Shown piece after piece: positions 16,528-22,047 of a stretch of 64,000 nucleotides of DNA. A model generated the notes under the pieces. That model saw only the letters and a list, made by a program, of their open reading frames with translations, searched no databases and was not told the origin of the DNA. The number at the start of each line of letters is the position of its first letter. Position 1 is the stretch's first letter. The DNA comes from Bacteriovoracia bacterium (GTDB lineage: Bacteria; Bdellovibrionota; Bacteriovoracia; Bacteriovoracales; Bacteriovoracaceae): contig JAUIIL010000002.1 in the NCBI GenBank assembly GCA_030431635.1, positions 62,001 to 126,000 on the forward strand, given 5' to 3'. Position numbers and translations under genes: made by a program.

Positions 16528-16643
16528 AAGTCTTTAATATTAAAGCAAAAAAAATATTTTTTTGATTGGGAATTAATTACCTTAGTGCGGAATTTGGATA
16601 ATCTTCTAGAATAAAATCTTCAAGGGTAAATTTAGGAGTGAAT

Positions 16644-17135
16644 ATGAAACTAATTATGTTTTTAACTTTATGTGTTCAATTAAGTTTGTATGCTCAAGGT
16701 GATAATCCACCTCCAAGAAGAGAAGATGGACCACCAAGAGATGATAGAAGGGCTGCCCCAGGGGAAGATGCTCCACCACCACCACCACCACCAAGAAGAG
16801 GTGAAGAGGGAAGAGGAGGAGAGCGCGGAAGAGGCGAAGAGCGTAGAGATGGCCAAAGAGGTGAAGAGAGAAGAGAAGGTCGTCAAGAAAGGCGTGAAGA
16901 GAGAAGAGAAAGTCGTCAAGAAGGACGTGAAGAAAGAAGAGAAGGTCGTCAAGAAAGACGTGAAGAAAGAAGAGAAGGTCGTCAGGAAAGACGTCAAGAA
17001 AGAAGAGAAGGTCGTCAAGAAGCAAGAGGTGGTCAACAAAAAAGAGGTGGTGGTTCTCAAAGAAGAAATACTGGACCTCAAAGAGGTGGCGGTGGTCCAC
17101 AAAAAAGCAACAGCGGACCTCAGAAAAGAAGATAA
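16644..17135 (+). CDS. Secreted Arg/Glu-rich tandem-repeat protein
   Basis: 163 residues from ATG 16644 (AGGAG 6 nt upstream; a GTG at 16638 is also in frame). A signal peptide (KLIMFLTLCVQLSLYAQG, cleavage near residue 18) is followed by a Pro-rich segment with a run of seven prolines (residues about 46-53). Then come about 60 residues dominated by Arg, Glu, Gln and Gly, with an 11-residue repeat of the form GRQERREERRE. The end is Gly/Gln/Ser-rich (RGGGGPQKS). There is no catalytic domain. The protein is probably periplasmic or secreted, and the alternating charges could form an extended single alpha-helix. A strong terminator follows the gene. Confidence 0.75.
   Translation: MKLIMFLTLCVQLSLYAQGDNPPPRREDGPPRDDRRAAPGEDAPPPPPPPRRGEEGRGGERGRGEERRDGQRGEERREGRQERREERRESRQEGREERREGRQERREERREGRQERRQERREGRQEARGGQQKRGGGSQRRNTGPQRGGGGPQKSNSGPQKRR
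16879..17030 (+). repeat. 33-bp tandem repeat within the Arg/Glu-rich gene
   Basis: The word GTCGTC recurs at 16879, 16912, 16945, 16978 and 17011, exactly 33 bp apart, giving four full near-identical units and a partial fifth. Each unit encodes 11 residues. The regularity indicates recent expansion by slippage or unequal recombination. Confidence 0.9.
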
Positions 17136-17140
17136 TAACG

Positions 17141-17168
17141 AAAGGCCTGGTTTTCCCAGGCCTTTTTT
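17141..17168 (+). terminator. Intrinsic terminator
   Basis: A perfect stem AAAGGCCTGG / CCAGGCCTTT encloses a short T-rich loop and is followed on the plus strand by a run of T. It sits 6 bp after the stop codon of the Arg/Glu-rich gene and just before the end of the convergent TetR gene. The reverse orientation has only three Ts. Confidence 0.9.
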
Positions 17169-17766
17169 ATTTTAAGCTCAAAAGATATTTTTCAACGATT
17201 TTATAAGTCTGGTCACTGTAATAGGAAGTAGGTTTTTCTGATTCAGTCATTGCAATAATCAAATTTCCAGTCATAAGTCCAAGAATAAGATCTGTTGATT
17301 CTTCAAGTAACTCTGGTGAAAGGGAAGGAATGAGTTTTTTTTCACTTAGAGAAAGTAAAATAGATCGTATCCTCTCTTTTCCTTGATGGCGCACTTTTTG
17401 GTTCAAGTCCTGATATTCTTGATTGTGAGATGCTTTATAATAAAAATGAAGCCATATTGTAAATTTATTCTTATTTTTTTTTACAAGAAGAAATGTTGAA
17501 TCAATATAGGATTTAAGTAGTGCTTTCGAATTTTGTTCACTTTTTTCTAGGGCCTTAATTGTAGATTGATTTAACTCATCAATCAGAGACTCTATAACAG
17601 CTTTTCCAAGATCTTTGATGTTAGGGAAATAATACAAAACAAGAGAGTGGTTTACCTCTGCGTACTTTGCAATATCGACTATCTTAGTTTGTTCAATTCC
17701 TGTCTCATTGAAACACTTAATAGCACTTTTAATGATTTTTTCTTTTTTACTTAAATTTTTGACCAT
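17167..17766 (-). CDS. TetR-family transcriptional regulator of the MNIO RiPP module
   Basis: About 199 residues from ATG 17766 (ATG at 17802 adds 12 residues and overlaps the previous gene). Residues about 5-50 are a classic TetR helix-turn-helix: KKEKIIKSAIKCFNETGIEQ, TKIVDIAKYAEVNHSLVLYYF, then NIKDLGKAVIE. The C-terminal 150 residues are the variable ligand domain. It is the last of four leftward genes (precursor, DUF692, DUF2063, tetR) and is probably co-transcribed. A candidate palindromic operator at 19699-19713 upstream of the precursor would close an autoregulatory loop. The inducing ligand is unknown; a metal ion or an oxidant would fit the module. Confidence 0.88.
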   Translation of the reverse strand: MVKNLSKKEKIIKSAIKCFNETGIEQTKIVDIAKYAEVNHSLVLYYFPNIKDLGKAVIESLIDELNQSTIKALEKSEQNSKALLKSYIDSTFLLVKKNKNKFTIWLHFYYKASHNQEYQDLNQKVRHQGKERIRSILLSLSEKKLIPSLSPELLEESTDLILGLMTGNLIIAMTESEKPTSYYSDQTYKIVEKYLLSLK

Positions 17767-17780
17767 TTGGTTTATTTTAT

Positions 17781-18524
17781 TTAACTTGAGTGGTTTAGGC
17801 AAAGTGAATCTTTAGACAGAATAATGTTTTGTTTTAAAGCAAATTCGATCTCTTTACTCAGTTTTTCTTTACTAGTAGAAGAATGACTAAGCATTAATTC
17901 CTTGAGTTCATTTTTTTCTATAAAACGATTTTGCTCTAAGAAAACATTGATTATTTCGAGAAGAATTTGAGAAGCTTTCGTGAAAAGACAATTTTTCAAA
18001 TGAAAGTCTCTTGTCACTAAAAGGATATGGTGAAGTTCAAGTGGTGTTTGAAATAAATCTTTATTAATCCAGTCTGTAATATCGTAGGTAAATTGCTGGC
18101 CAATTAAAAGAGGATTCAGACATAACTCTTCTTGAGCGATGTCTGAGATAACTTCTTCCTCATTTTCACAGCTCAGACAAATGTCAAACTTGAGCCACTC
18201 GTAGAGAGAAAGCTCTTGAATATAGAGAGGGTAATTCTTATTTGTTAAAAATTGAGGAAATTGTTTGCCCATTGAATTGAGTTCCCAATCATAAGCCTGA
18301 TATTCTTGATAGTAGAGAGGGGATATTTCTTGCAATTTTAATTTTGCAGCTTTGATTGTAAGAGGGAAATTTTTGGCGAGAGCGAACTCAAAATGATGAT
18401 TGATAAACTCTTTATAAAGCTCTAAATGTGGATTTTTAATCTTCAAACTACTCTGAGCTTCTTGAAGATTTATTTTTCCTAATAAAAACTGACTCCATAT
18501 TTTGTTATAATCTTTAAGTTTCAT
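17781..18524 (-). CDS. DUF2063 (HvfC/BufC-like) partner protein of an MNIO enzyme
   Basis: 247 residues. The N-terminal half shows the DUF2063 pattern: a helical opening, FPLTIKAAKLKL, YYQEYQAYDWELNSMGKQFP-FL, then YPLYIQELSLYEWLKFDI. The C-terminal half is a second helical region. In characterised MNIO RiPP systems (Haemophilus hvf, Caulobacter buf), proteins of this family partner the DUF692 enzyme and are thought to bind the precursor. Here the gene begins 11 bp inside the DUF692 gene, which implies coupled translation and a complex. The family call comes from pattern plus position, since sequence conservation in DUF2063 is low. Confidence 0.75.
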   Translation of the reverse strand: MKLKDYNKIWSQFLLGKINLQEAQSSLKIKNPHLELYKEFINHHFEFALAKNFPLTIKAAKLKLQEISPLYYQEYQAYDWELNSMGKQFPQFLTNKNYPLYIQELSLYEWLKFDICLSCENEEEVISDIAQEELCLNPLLIGQQFTYDITDWINKDLFQTPLELHHILLVTRDFHLKNCLFTKASQILLEIINVFLEQNRFIEKNELKELMLSHSSTSKEKLSKEIEFALKQNIILSKDSLCLNHSS

Positions 18525-19350
18525 CGAAACACTCTTTTAAAATTTCTTTTGCTTTTCGAGCTTCTTTTTTTAACTCTTCAAAACTAGGTATTTCATTATC
18601 CCATTCAATTAAAGTTGAAACAGGTCTCTCTAAGTACTCAAGGGTTTTTCTGTAAAGTACCCAAACATCTGGGCATATATAATCACCATGTGTATCAATT
18701 AAAAGATCCCCTCTGTTCCAATGACCAGCAAGATGAATTTGAATAATACTTTCAACAGGAAGAGATTTTATATAATCGATTGCATTAAAGTTAAAGTTAA
18801 CTGAATTAACATAAACATTGTTAACATCTAGTAGTAGTTTACAGTTTGTTCGCTTAACTATTTCTGTGATGAATTCCTCTTCAGTCATTTCATCTAAATG
18901 GCTTTTTAGGTAGTAGCTAATATTTTCAAGAGCAAAAGGGATTTTTAGTTTCTCCTGAAGGGTATTTATTTTATGGGAAATAATTTCTAATGATTCTGAT
19001 GTTTTTAAAACTGGAAGGAGATCATGGAAATGAACTTTTTCATGGCTTGAAAAACAAAGATGATCAGAAAACCACGGAGGGTTTAATAAATGAATGAGTT
19101 GTTGCAGTTTTTTAAAGTAACTTTGATCAATATCGTCAGAACTTCCGAGAGAAAGACTTACTCCATGAGGAATAATAGGAATTTTTTTTGAGATAAGGCT
19201 TTTTAAAACATCAAGAGGTCTTCCTCCGAACTTCATGTAGTTTTCAGAAAGTATTTCATACCAGTCAACATCTTGGTTGTTTTCTAGTACTTTCTTGAAA
19301 TGTTTTTTTCTAAGCCCAAGGCCAACGCCTAGATAAGAATTTTTTTGCAT
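18514..19350 (-). CDS. MNIO enzyme (DUF692 multinuclear non-heme iron oxidative enzyme)
   Basis: 278 residues, the usual length of the HvfB/BufB/MbnB family. The fold is a TIM barrel with metal ligands in conserved blocks: VGLGLR at the start, PHGVSLSLG (H62), WFSDHLCF (D96, H97), ALENISYY (E142), LLLDVNNVYVN (D175), IIQIHLAGH (H206, H210), IDTHGD (D219, H221) and LIEWDNEIPSFEEL (E249). All look intact, so the enzyme should be active. MNIO enzymes use iron and O2 to convert Cys or other residues of a peptide into heterocycles or related modifications. The gene lies 61 bp after the Cys-repeat precursor, with a terminator-like hairpin between. There is no Shine-Dalgarno directly upstream of its ATG. 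Confidence 0.95.
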   Translation of the reverse strand: MQKNSYLGVGLGLRKKHFKKVLENNQDVDWYEILSENYMKFGGRPLDVLKSLISKKIPIIPHGVSLSLGSSDDIDQSYFKKLQQLIHLLNPPWFSDHLCFSSHEKVHFHDLLPVLKTSESLEIISHKINTLQEKLKIPFALENISYYLKSHLDEMTEEEFITEIVKRTNCKLLLDVNNVYVNSVNFNFNAIDYIKSLPVESIIQIHLAGHWNRGDLLIDTHGDYICPDVWVLYRKTLEYLERPVSTLIEWDNEIPSFEELKKEARKAKEILKECFDET

Positions 19351-19383
19351 AATTAAAATAAAAGAGGTCCTTATGGACCTCTT
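19351..19383 (-). terminator. Attenuator/terminator hairpin between precursor and MNIO gene
   Basis: Read leftward, AAGAGGTCC-ATAA-GGACCTCTT forms a perfect 9-bp stem with a 4-nt loop, followed by TTTATTTTAATT that runs right up to the DUF692 ATG. This is the architecture of an intrinsic terminator. Placed after the precursor gene, partial read-through would make much more precursor than enzyme mRNA. Confidence 0.8.
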
Positions 19384-19411
19384 CGTTAACGATTATTTAA
19401 TGTAACAGATA

Positions 19412-19657
19412 TTATTCATCGCTTCCAGAATCATCGGCAGGGGCTTCACTTTCTTCACTTGGTTTTGAATTTCCACATCCATTAGCTCCGCAACCACTGG
19501 CCCCACATCCATCACCTTCATGATCGACAATACCTGCTTCATGAGATCCTTTCCAGTTATTTGGAGTTGCATCAGTAGATGCACTGACGCTATTAACTGT
19601 AAGTGCTCCAGAAACAAGCGAAGTGGCAATAAGTAGTTTTAAGTTTTTACCTTTCAT
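19412..19657 (-). CDS. Secreted Cys-repeat RiPP precursor (HvfA/bufferin-like)
   Basis: 81 residues with a strong ribosome binding site (CGGAGG). A Sec-type signal peptide (MKGKNLKLLIATSLVSGAL, cleavage probably after SVSA near residue 26) precedes a mature part of about 55 residues. Its centre is HEGDGCGASGCGANGCGNS, with C51, C56 and C61 spaced exactly five apart in a CGxxG repeat. The C-terminus is acidic (EESEAPADDSGSDE). Proteins of this shape encoded next to DUF692 and DUF2063 genes are precursors of MNIO-modified RiPPs; HvfA-type precursors carry EGKCG pentapeptide repeats and bufferins are signal-peptide-bearing copper-binding products. The same region in another frame is open but is a shadow. 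The modification itself is inferred, not visible. Confidence 0.85.
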   Translation of the reverse strand: MKGKNLKLLIATSLVSGALTVNSVSASTDATPNNWKGSHEAGIVDHEGDGCGASGCGANGCGNSKPSEESEAPADDSGSDE

Positions 19658-19690
19658 TTTTCCTCCGATTTTAAAAGGTCATCCATTTTT

Positions 19691-19713
19691 ATTTTATCTT
19701 CATTTCAAATGAA
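19691..19713 (-). promoter_or_regulatory. Candidate promoter and TetR operator of the MNIO RiPP module
   Basis: A perfect palindrome of 15 bp, TTCATTT-C-AAATGAA, lies at 19699-19713, about 42 bp upstream of the precursor ATG. Read leftward it directly precedes TAAAAT (19696-19691), a good -10 box, so the palindrome would fill the spacer. The corresponding -35 (TCCCTA) is poor. Binding by the module's own TetR protein is a natural hypothesis. Confidence 0.45.
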
Positions 19714-19765: not shown

Positions 19766-21748
19766 TTATTTACTTGCTTTTGGTAGTACTGAGCTCGGAA
19801 CAAAAAGATCTCTGGCCCCGTAATAGATAGGTTTGGTGAGTAGGTTATCTAGGATAACAACAGCACCGGCTTTAACATAGGAGAGAGTCGGATTTAAAGA
19901 GTTTTTACAAAGCATATTAAACATATAGAGGCCTACAAGGACTGATTTCATGTTCGAAATGGAGCCAAACTTTCTGTTAAATGTTAAAAGGTCTGTATAA
20001 GCAAAACCTGTGTTCTGAGTTCCTAGTTTTTTAACAAATTCAGGAGAATCTTTTGAGTTCTCAATTCTTAGGTTCTGATAATATTCTTGTCCTAATAATC
20101 TTGAGACAGCTTCTTCGATTTCAGGTTTTTCTAGATCTTCTTCTGTTTTAACGGCTTCTAGTAACGTTTCTCCAGTCGGAATCTTTTGAGACTTTAGAAG
20201 ATCAATTACGTGATAATAAATTTTTCGCGCAACTTCTTGTTCTTTATAAGTCTTAACGAGTTGTTCTAATTTTTCTTTATAGTAGGGGCTCTCTTTGAGT
20301 TTTTGATACTCTCTGTTTATTTCTTCATCGTTTCCTGTAAACCGGTAAGCGATTTCTCCACTGTATAAAAAATCTTTCATGGCTTCAATCATGAAGAAAG
20401 TAAAGTATTTGGGAAGTAAGGGCATTCCTTTTTGAGAAATAACATGAGTATTGAGAAGCTCGTAAACAGCAAGCCATCTCAACTCAAGTTCAAGTCTGAG
20501 GTGTGCTTCATTAGGAAATTCTTCAAGCCATGGTGCATCTGGATTAAGGTAGTAGTAAGAGCCTGCAAGAAAAGAAGAACTCATAAAAAGTTTAAATTTT
20601 CTAAAGCGAGAAAGATTAGTTTTATCATTTGTTGTTAGTTTTTTCTTCTTAGACAAACCTTGAGAATTTCTTTGACAGGTGTTTCTTATTTCTCTTAGTT
20701 GATAACGATATTCATAAGCTTCTTCTAAAATCTTTTGCCTTTCAAATGAAGTCAGTGCAACAGTTTGAGATTTATTTTTTTTGACGAGTTCTTGATAGAC
20801 GAGTCGAGCTTTTGTTTTTATCGATACTTCTTGCTCACCAGAAATTTGCTTTAATTTTTTCTCACGGATTTTCTTTTTGGTAAGTTTTCTTCTGTGCTCA
20901 TCAAAAGCGTTGTTAAGTATATGCTGTTCTTTAAAGAAATTGTATCCCCTTTCTCCAATTCCAAGAATAAGTCTCGTTTTTTGACTTAATATTTCATTTA
21001 ACCAGTTGGTAGAGAATTCTTTTTCGTTTGAAAGAATGGGAATAATATCTTTGGCCACTTTTTGACGGTAAATAGGCTTTAGCGCTTGTAAATATTCGAA
21101 AAGTTCATCAGCTACGGACAAAAATTCTTCTTCTTCAGGTAGTACACCTCTCAATTGCTCTTCGATAATTTGAAAGCTCTTGTCTCCAGGGTAACGAGAA
21201 CGAAAAAGAAATTCCCATTTCTTTTTCATTTCCGCAGAAAGCTCACTTCTCTCAAGCATTTGAATGAGCTTCCTTTCAAGATGGGGCTCCATCTTATGGT
21301 TGAGAAAGACTTCTTGGTGCTCATCAGAAAATAGAAAAGAGGGTCTTTCATCAAATAGATGAATTTTTTTAACTTCATTTTTTAAGCTAAAATAATTAAT
21401 GGCCTTGGCTTCGATAAGCTCATTAACTGTATCAGTAAACTCTTCAGTAAATTTATTTTTGGAGGAATTAAATAAAATGATTTCAGCCACAAATTGCTCT
21501 CTGTAAGAAAAAGGAACTGCTTTAATAAGATCTTTCCAGGCTTTCTCATTTAAATTTTTAACATCACTAATAGAAATATCAGTTGAGATTTTCTTTCGGC
21601 GGTATTTATTGGCTTCTTTTACCGTTTGTGGAAGAACTCCTTTCTTGGTAAAGCGTAAATTACAATAAACTTCTTTGTTTGTTGAAGATTGGGATTGCAC
21701 CGAAAAAAACATAAGTGCCAGCAACAACTTGAAATAAACAAAATTCAC
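19766..21748 (-). CDS. Large exported protein of unknown function
   Basis: About 660 residues. I place the start at GTG 21748 (NFVYFKLLLALMFFSVQSQS forms a signal peptide directly after it); a GTG at 21763 would add five charged residues. Cleavage near QSQSS is plausible. The mature protein is Lys/Glu-rich and mainly helical, with many short basic stretches (KKIREKKLKQI), a mildly hydrophobic segment (MSSSFLAGSYYYL) and cysteines at either end of the chain. I do not recognise any domain. It lies upstream of the RiPP precursor in the same direction, but more than 100 bp separate them and a promoter candidate lies between, so it is probably independent. Confidence 0.65.
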   Translation of the reverse strand: MNFVYFKLLLALMFFSVQSQSSTNKEVYCNLRFTKKGVLPQTVKEANKYRRKKISTDISISDVKNLNEKAWKDLIKAVPFSYREQFVAEIILFNSSKNKFTEEFTDTVNELIEAKAINYFSLKNEVKKIHLFDERPSFLFSDEHQEVFLNHKMEPHLERKLIQMLERSELSAEMKKKWEFLFRSRYPGDKSFQIIEEQLRGVLPEEEEFLSVADELFEYLQALKPIYRQKVAKDIIPILSNEKEFSTNWLNEILSQKTRLILGIGERGYNFFKEQHILNNAFDEHRRKLTKKKIREKKLKQISGEQEVSIKTKARLVYQELVKKNKSQTVALTSFERQKILEEAYEYRYQLREIRNTCQRNSQGLSKKKKLTTNDKTNLSRFRKFKLFMSSSFLAGSYYYLNPDAPWLEEFPNEAHLRLELELRWLAVYELLNTHVISQKGMPLLPKYFTFFMIEAMKDFLYSGEIAYRFTGNDEEINREYQKLKESPYYKEKLEQLVKTYKEQEVARKIYYHVIDLLKSQKIPTGETLLEAVKTEEDLEKPEIEEAVSRLLGQEYYQNLRIENSKDSPEFVKKLGTQNTGFAYTDLLTFNRKFGSISNMKSVLVGLYMFNMLCKNSLNPTLSYVKAGAVVILDNLLTKPIYYGARDLFVPSSVLPKASK

Positions 21749-22047
21749 TTCTTCTCTCACCACTCGCTTTGGTAACTATTGGTTTTTATCAATATGACTC
21801 TTAGGTTGAGCTTGCAAGGTTGAAGGCATGTAAATCATGAAAAATTTACACTCTTTATTGTTAGACTTGTGTTAGGTTTTTTATTTCTTTTATTTCAAGT
21901 AGTTAAGGAAATGCTTAACAAGGTGTGTTGGACAATTTTTTTCTTTTTTACAGGAGCCACTTTACAAAAAGTATAACTACATTGAGGCTCGTAACTCTTC
22001 AGAAATATTCCCATTGGCCCTTTTAAACGCTATCATTAACGCTACAT

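Follow-up and report, generated by a model that had tools for sequence, protein, structure and literature searches.

Does the compact set of four genes found in a bacterium of the class Bacteriovoracia encode a new kind of peptide-modifying system or a variant of one already described? The genes lie in a 64,000-nucleotide stretch of contig JAUIIL010000002.1 (hereinafter, the window), and the original prediction, which read them as an MNIO (DUF692) RiPP module, placed all four correctly on the minus strand. The features of the locus, in the direction of transcription, are the following:

19699..19713, no strand assigned: 15-bp palindrome TTCATTTGAAATGAA, 5′ of the precursor gene, found at 2 places in the genome
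19412..19657, minus strand: precursor peptide (A), 81 aa (ORF, leader-only profile, alignment with relatives)
19361..19384, minus strand: intrinsic-terminator-like hairpin in the precursor/MNIO gap (-16 kcal/mol, z about -5)
18514..19350, minus strand: MNIO enzyme (B), DUF692/PF05114, 278 aa (Pfam and NCBIfam profiles, alignment, tree)
17781..18524, minus strand: partner protein (C), DUF2063 plus RRE-type (PME1/HvfC-like), 247 aa (NCBIfam, AF2, Foldseek)
17167..17766, minus strand: TetR-family regulator (PF00440; alternative TTG start at 17802)
17140..17166, no strand assigned: bidirectional terminator-like hairpin at the operon end

The precursor ATG lies shortly after a GGAGG site, the MNIO ATG lies 61 bases after the precursor stop codon, with a hairpin in between, and the partner and MNIO genes overlap by 11 bases.

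The MNIO enzyme matches PF05114 with E 5.9e-99 (331 bits, cut-off 25), aligns with 3BWW over nearly the full length and conserves all eleven ligand-type positions (H62, D96, H97, E142, D175, N177, H206, H210, D219, H221, and E249), so that the claim of a DUF692 enzyme with all expected metal ligands is confirmed. On NCBIfam models, it scores 320.5 bits against BufB (NF050167; cut-off 310), a model that does not separate the branches here because the MNIOs of relatives with Cys-Gly precursors score 279–312, as well as 256 bits against HvfB (cut-off 360), 73 against ChrH and 53 against MbnB. A phmmer search of the partner protein against the PDB gave no match, and we therefore resorted to fold prediction. 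The AlphaFold (AF2) model (pLDDT 81.5) retrieved, in Foldseek, TglI (8hci; E 3.5e-6), NGO1945 (3dee; E 2e-4) and, weakly, MbnC. Thus, the proposed DUF2063 partner is recovered at the level of the predicted fold, although its profile scores are below the cut-offs of both Pfam DUF2063 (18.4 bits, cut-off 27.2) and NCBIfam HvfC (48 bits, cut-off 142; E 1.3e-12 in a near full-length match). As modeled, the protein appears to combine the DUF2063 and RRE-type domains expected of a PME1.

The three cysteines of the 81-aa protein, spaced five residues apart in its C-terminal half (C-G-A-S-G-C-G-A-N-G-C-G), are by themselves weak evidence for a real precursor. When a leader-only profile was made from residues 1–42 of the precursors of four relatives, without the window, and searched against 899 stop-to-stop frames, this ORF was the only significant match (E 1.3e-6). 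The peptide consists of a signal peptide/leader MKGKNLKLLIATSLVSGALTVNSVSA, assigned by eye and homology, a TPNNW motif, the core DGCGASGCGANGCGNS and an acidic tail. In the alignment, the window peptide and those of its relatives, with overall identity of 22–36%, have a conserved leader with a K-rich start, a hydrophobic stretch and a D.TP..W motif. In the precursors of G023, G019 and G070, this motif precedes the likely cleavage site (judged by eye), whereas in the lipoprotein-like precursor of G071 it follows the presumed lipidated Cys; given that it falls on either side of the presumed processing sites, a cleavage signal is an unlikely role for the motif. We hypothesize that it is a recognition element for the partner, which would agree with a finding referred to in PMC13419390, namely that the Sec signal also serves as the leader. 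The original reading of the locus as an MNIO/DUF2063 RiPP module, with a precursor of the HvfA/bufferin kind that bears a signal peptide, is supported.

The precursor itself passes no curated precursor model. It matches neither NF050188 nor NF050137 (HvfA/Buf_EGKCG) in NCBIfam, nor, in Pfam and NCBIfam, the BufA1 (DUF2282) or BufA2 models, membership in which was defined by a model match and 4 or 6 conserved Cys. The only curated precursor model matched is that of CefA, the 'Cys-every-fifth RiPP' (NF038108), which the peptide matches in the core region 48–63 (E 8.7e-4) but with 19.2 bits, below the cut-off of 30. Searching the literature for CefA, and for MNIOs of Bdellovibrio-like bacteria, turned up nothing relevant.

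By sequence comparison, then, the module belongs to the known MNIO plus PME1 (captophorin: bufferin/oxazolin/fontiphorin) class: a PF05114 enzyme, a PME1-type partner and an adjacent Cys-rich precursor with a putative Sec signal occur in the order A-B-C. As in the oxazolin (HvfABC, Haemophilus) and fontiphorin (FonABC) systems, a precursor with a signal peptide and a Cys at every fifth position, each followed by Gly, is succeeded by the MNIO and a DUF2063-RRE partner; furthermore, the enzyme has a basic pair near its N-terminus and the relatives' precursors match HvfA models. Unlike these systems, the window has xxGCG rather than EGKCG repeats, three Cys, Asn rather than Phe after the predicted catalytic Asp, and a TetR gene but no DoxX gene. 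With bufferins 1 and 2 (BufABC), the module shares an enzyme above the BufB cut-off, the gene order and the Sec leader; however, its precursor is neither DUF2282 nor BufA2, its cysteines are followed by Gly rather than Lys, and its enzyme falls in a clade separate from the enzymes of local BufA2-type loci.

How distinct is the core? MNIO matches were found in 46 of the 129 genomes of the family, and five of these (G023, G019, G071, G070, and G020) encode homologous precursors, invariably in the order precursor-MNIO-partner. The precursor repeats in these relatives are KCG, EGKCG, GSCG or GCG; the relatives' precursors match HvfA/KCGExKCG models, with two (L004 and L006) passing the NF050137 domain cut-off (EGKCG). 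The precursor of G020 ends in EKGCGASGCGS and shares GCGASGCG with the window, and G359, from another family, has NGCGKEGCG. With KCG and EGKCG repeats behind the same leader motif, and GCG recurring in G020 and G359, the window motif is one of several drifting versions: its pentapeptide has drifted from the oxazolin core and does not represent a new kind. The biochemistry of FonBC points the same way: its substrates tolerate Ala, Arg or Thr before Cys, require a small residue after it and need two repeats (PMC13097082). Thus, the original view of the precursor as a new-looking, separate kind is not sustained. By analogy with FonBC, the window core, with Gly on both sides of Cys and three repeats, is a plausible substrate; Gly before Cys was not found among the substrates tested in published work.

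Across 369 genomes, most matches to the GCGxxGCG pattern are attributable to chance, and only in G000, G020 and G359 does the pattern occur beside an MNIO gene. A tandem GCGxxGCG array in G156 was discarded because it looks like another frame of a pentapeptide-repeat ORF. The pairing of DUF692 with a Cys-repeat gene, whose breakdown in other genomes the original prediction named as counting against it, holds for the window and the five relatives but breaks down for some distant MNIOs of the family: in genus g4 (L022, L026, L027, L029, and L058), as well as in L007–L009, other-branch MNIOs have no Cys-rich secreted-looking ORF directly upstream. Precursors encoded apart from MNIO genes are known (PMC12452194). 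In genus g4, L054–L058 are MNIO plus partner pairs with no Cys-rich secreted-looking ORF about 40–420 bases upstream, and in L058 this region holds a small ORF on the opposite strand (HGKKLTTKEKKAMNHLKL), which resembles another found upstream of the MNIO in L046 (KKLTTRVKKAKNHFKLF). Two further MNIO matches, L091 (G199) and G225:C11:56431-57228, contain one in-frame stop codon each and are possible pseudogenes.

Alignment onto published sites (PMC13097082) predicts D251 as the catalytic base and R14-K15 and N252 as the specificity positions. A basic residue at the FonB-Arg16 position is tied to EGKCG-type substrates, and an acidic one at the FonB-Phe250 position to Cys-Lys substrates (PMC13097082); the window enzyme has a basic residue at the former and no acidic residue at the latter. 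N252 corresponds neither to the Phe of EGKCG enzymes nor to the Asp of Cys-Lys enzymes. The residues at the R14-K15 positions are RR in G023, G019 and G070 and RL in G071, all with N or H after the Asp; in BufA2-type loci of the same family, the second residue is non-basic and D or E follows the Asp position. In the MNIO tree, which was built without G020, one supported clade (99/84) gathers the enzymes that go with Cys-Gly precursors and is separate from the Cys-Lys BufA2-type enzymes; L082 is the one exception. Because the Cys-Gly enzymes are essentially one clade, the correlation between residue and precursor is confounded by descent. Asn at this site accompanies KCG as well as GCG precursors; it is thus a trait of the clade and does not account for the GCG core.

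What, then, does the operon make? We consider it probable that the precursor, MNIO and partner genes form a RiPP operon of the captophorin class, nearest to its oxazolin/EGKCG branch, which makes a 5-thiooxazole peptide that binds Cu(I) in the periplasm. Gene order, family membership, metal ligands, leader homology and the predicted partner fold are the sequence basis of this proposal, from which we infer modification, export, metal, physiological role and regulation, the chemistry and the metal being taken from characterized relatives. The precursor would be made with a Sec signal peptide doubling as leader; the partner would bind the leader and activate the enzyme's mixed-valent iron cofactor, and the MNIO would then carry out, in the cytoplasm, a four-electron oxidation of every xxGCG cysteine to 5-thiooxazole. 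The modified peptide would then be exported via Sec to the periplasm, where two or three thiolate-bearing heterocycles could bind Cu(I), most likely for copper buffering or sequestration. All characterized MNIO-PME1 cases install 5-thiooxazole (PMC13097082), and several PME1-dependent MNIO products bind copper (PMC13097082, PMC13419390, PMC12538549). By this analogy, copper binding by the product is our best guess and the leading hypothesis; a protective role is not settled even in characterized copper-binding systems. Several points weigh against the proposal: the precursor passes no curated model, N252 fits neither characterized group of enzymes, Gly before Cys was not found among tested substrates, no DoxX or copper gene was seen adjoining the operon, and copper protection was assigned only with hesitation in Microbulbifer (PMC12538549).

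Considerably less probable is the same class and chemistry with a product serving against another stress or metal (zinc, mercury or oxidants), or in signaling or the envelope, rather than in copper buffering. Three Cys, and two in G020, are few for copper storage, likely roles in other metal stresses were noted in the landscape paper (PMC12452194), workers on Microbulbifer hesitated to assign copper protection, which was not convincing there, to an EGKCG cluster (PMC12538549), and in two relatives the next gene after the cluster encodes a YceI-like periplasmic protein. Nevertheless, the characterized PME1-dependent products bind copper through 5-thiooxazole, and no gene for another metal adjoins the operon. 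A different MNIO reaction on the GCG motif, e.g., formation of an oxazolone-thioamide, hydroxylation or cleavage, is improbable: MNIO chemistry is diverse (PMC12452194, PMC13419390) and the Asn beside the predicted catalytic base matches neither characterized group, but the BufB and HvfB scores far exceed those for MbnB and ChrH, a PME1-type partner is present, and members of the clade that share this Asn go with KCG/EGKCG precursors. Least probable of all is a degenerating system, in which most repeats have been lost from the precursor and the enzyme pair survives as a relic. In its favor, the core has three Cys (two in G020) compared to four to seven in the other relatives; against it, all frames are intact, all ligands are kept, the precursor has a good ribosome site, and the leader is conserved, with 22–36% identity overall.

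The TetR gene (PF00440, E 1.6e-8) can be read from a TTG (17167–17802, minus strand), but the ATG at 17766, about 12 bases past the end of the partner gene, is the likelier start, as judged by the fit to the start of the G074 homologue. The gene was originally taken for the module's own regulator and for an addition foreign to known systems. The first view is not supported: no TetR gene lies beside the MNIO in any of the five relatives with homologous precursors, and the best homologue in the family (G074, 41% identical) adjoins a gene resembling sugar kinases, one neighbor being concealed by the contig end, in a genome that lacks any MNIO match. Transcriptional regulators near MNIO-PME1 clusters have, moreover, already been reported as frequent (PMC13097082). 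In the relatives, the gene after the partner encodes an unrelated secreted-looking protein (G023) or a YceI-like protein (G071 and G070), or lies on the opposite strand (G019 and G020). The YceI-like periplasmic protein gene is directly 3′ of the partner in L041 and L042, which hints at a possible functional link. The TetR gene is probably co-transcribed with the operon here but probably does not belong to the conserved system; it would have been added locally at the operon end, where it may exert autoregulation. The upstream palindrome is a possible operator; as the TetR operator, it was set aside, since, although present at two places in the genome, it is not significant compared to shuffles (about 0.2).

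The hairpin between the precursor and MNIO genes, an element missing from the original prediction, is strong, with a T-rich tail, is followed by TTTTATTTTAATT and probably lowers expression of the enzyme relative to the precursor, a layout that would yield more precursor than enzyme. An analogous strong hairpin, followed by TTTTAATTATG, occupies the same gap in G070 (L042), and intergenic attenuation may thus be a recurring feature. The L042 hairpin together with TTTTAATTATG resembles the window's hairpin together with the start of its MNIO gene.

These findings extend the oxazolin-like branch to a lineage that we did not find discussed in the MNIO literature and point to a natural substrate whose three Cys (two in G020) bring it near the two-repeat minimum that has served in vitro. 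Furthermore, the two MNIO branches of one family, Cys-Gly and Cys-Lys, with active-site residues differing at the published specificity positions, provide a natural test set for the published specificity model. Otherwise, the discovery value is modest, given that the catalogue of MNIO-PME1 loci with varied pentapeptides already runs to thousands. A more speculative extension, which we regard as unlikely, is that a minimal GCG-type captophorin is common to at least 2 genera of the family, with the TPxSW stretch by the signal peptide as the partner-recognition element, the Asn after the catalytic Asp marking a subgroup of enzymes that follow a substrate rule of their own, and, in the genus of the window, a dedicated TetR sensor for a non-copper signal.

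Two neighbors of the operon belong to no Pfam family. Upstream, on the same strand, lies a gene for a 665-aa protein with a probable signal peptide (19766–21763, minus strand). At the other end, convergent with the TetR gene, a plus-strand gene (16638–17135) encodes a 165-aa secreted-looking protein with RREERREGRQE-type repeats and a Gly-rich tail.
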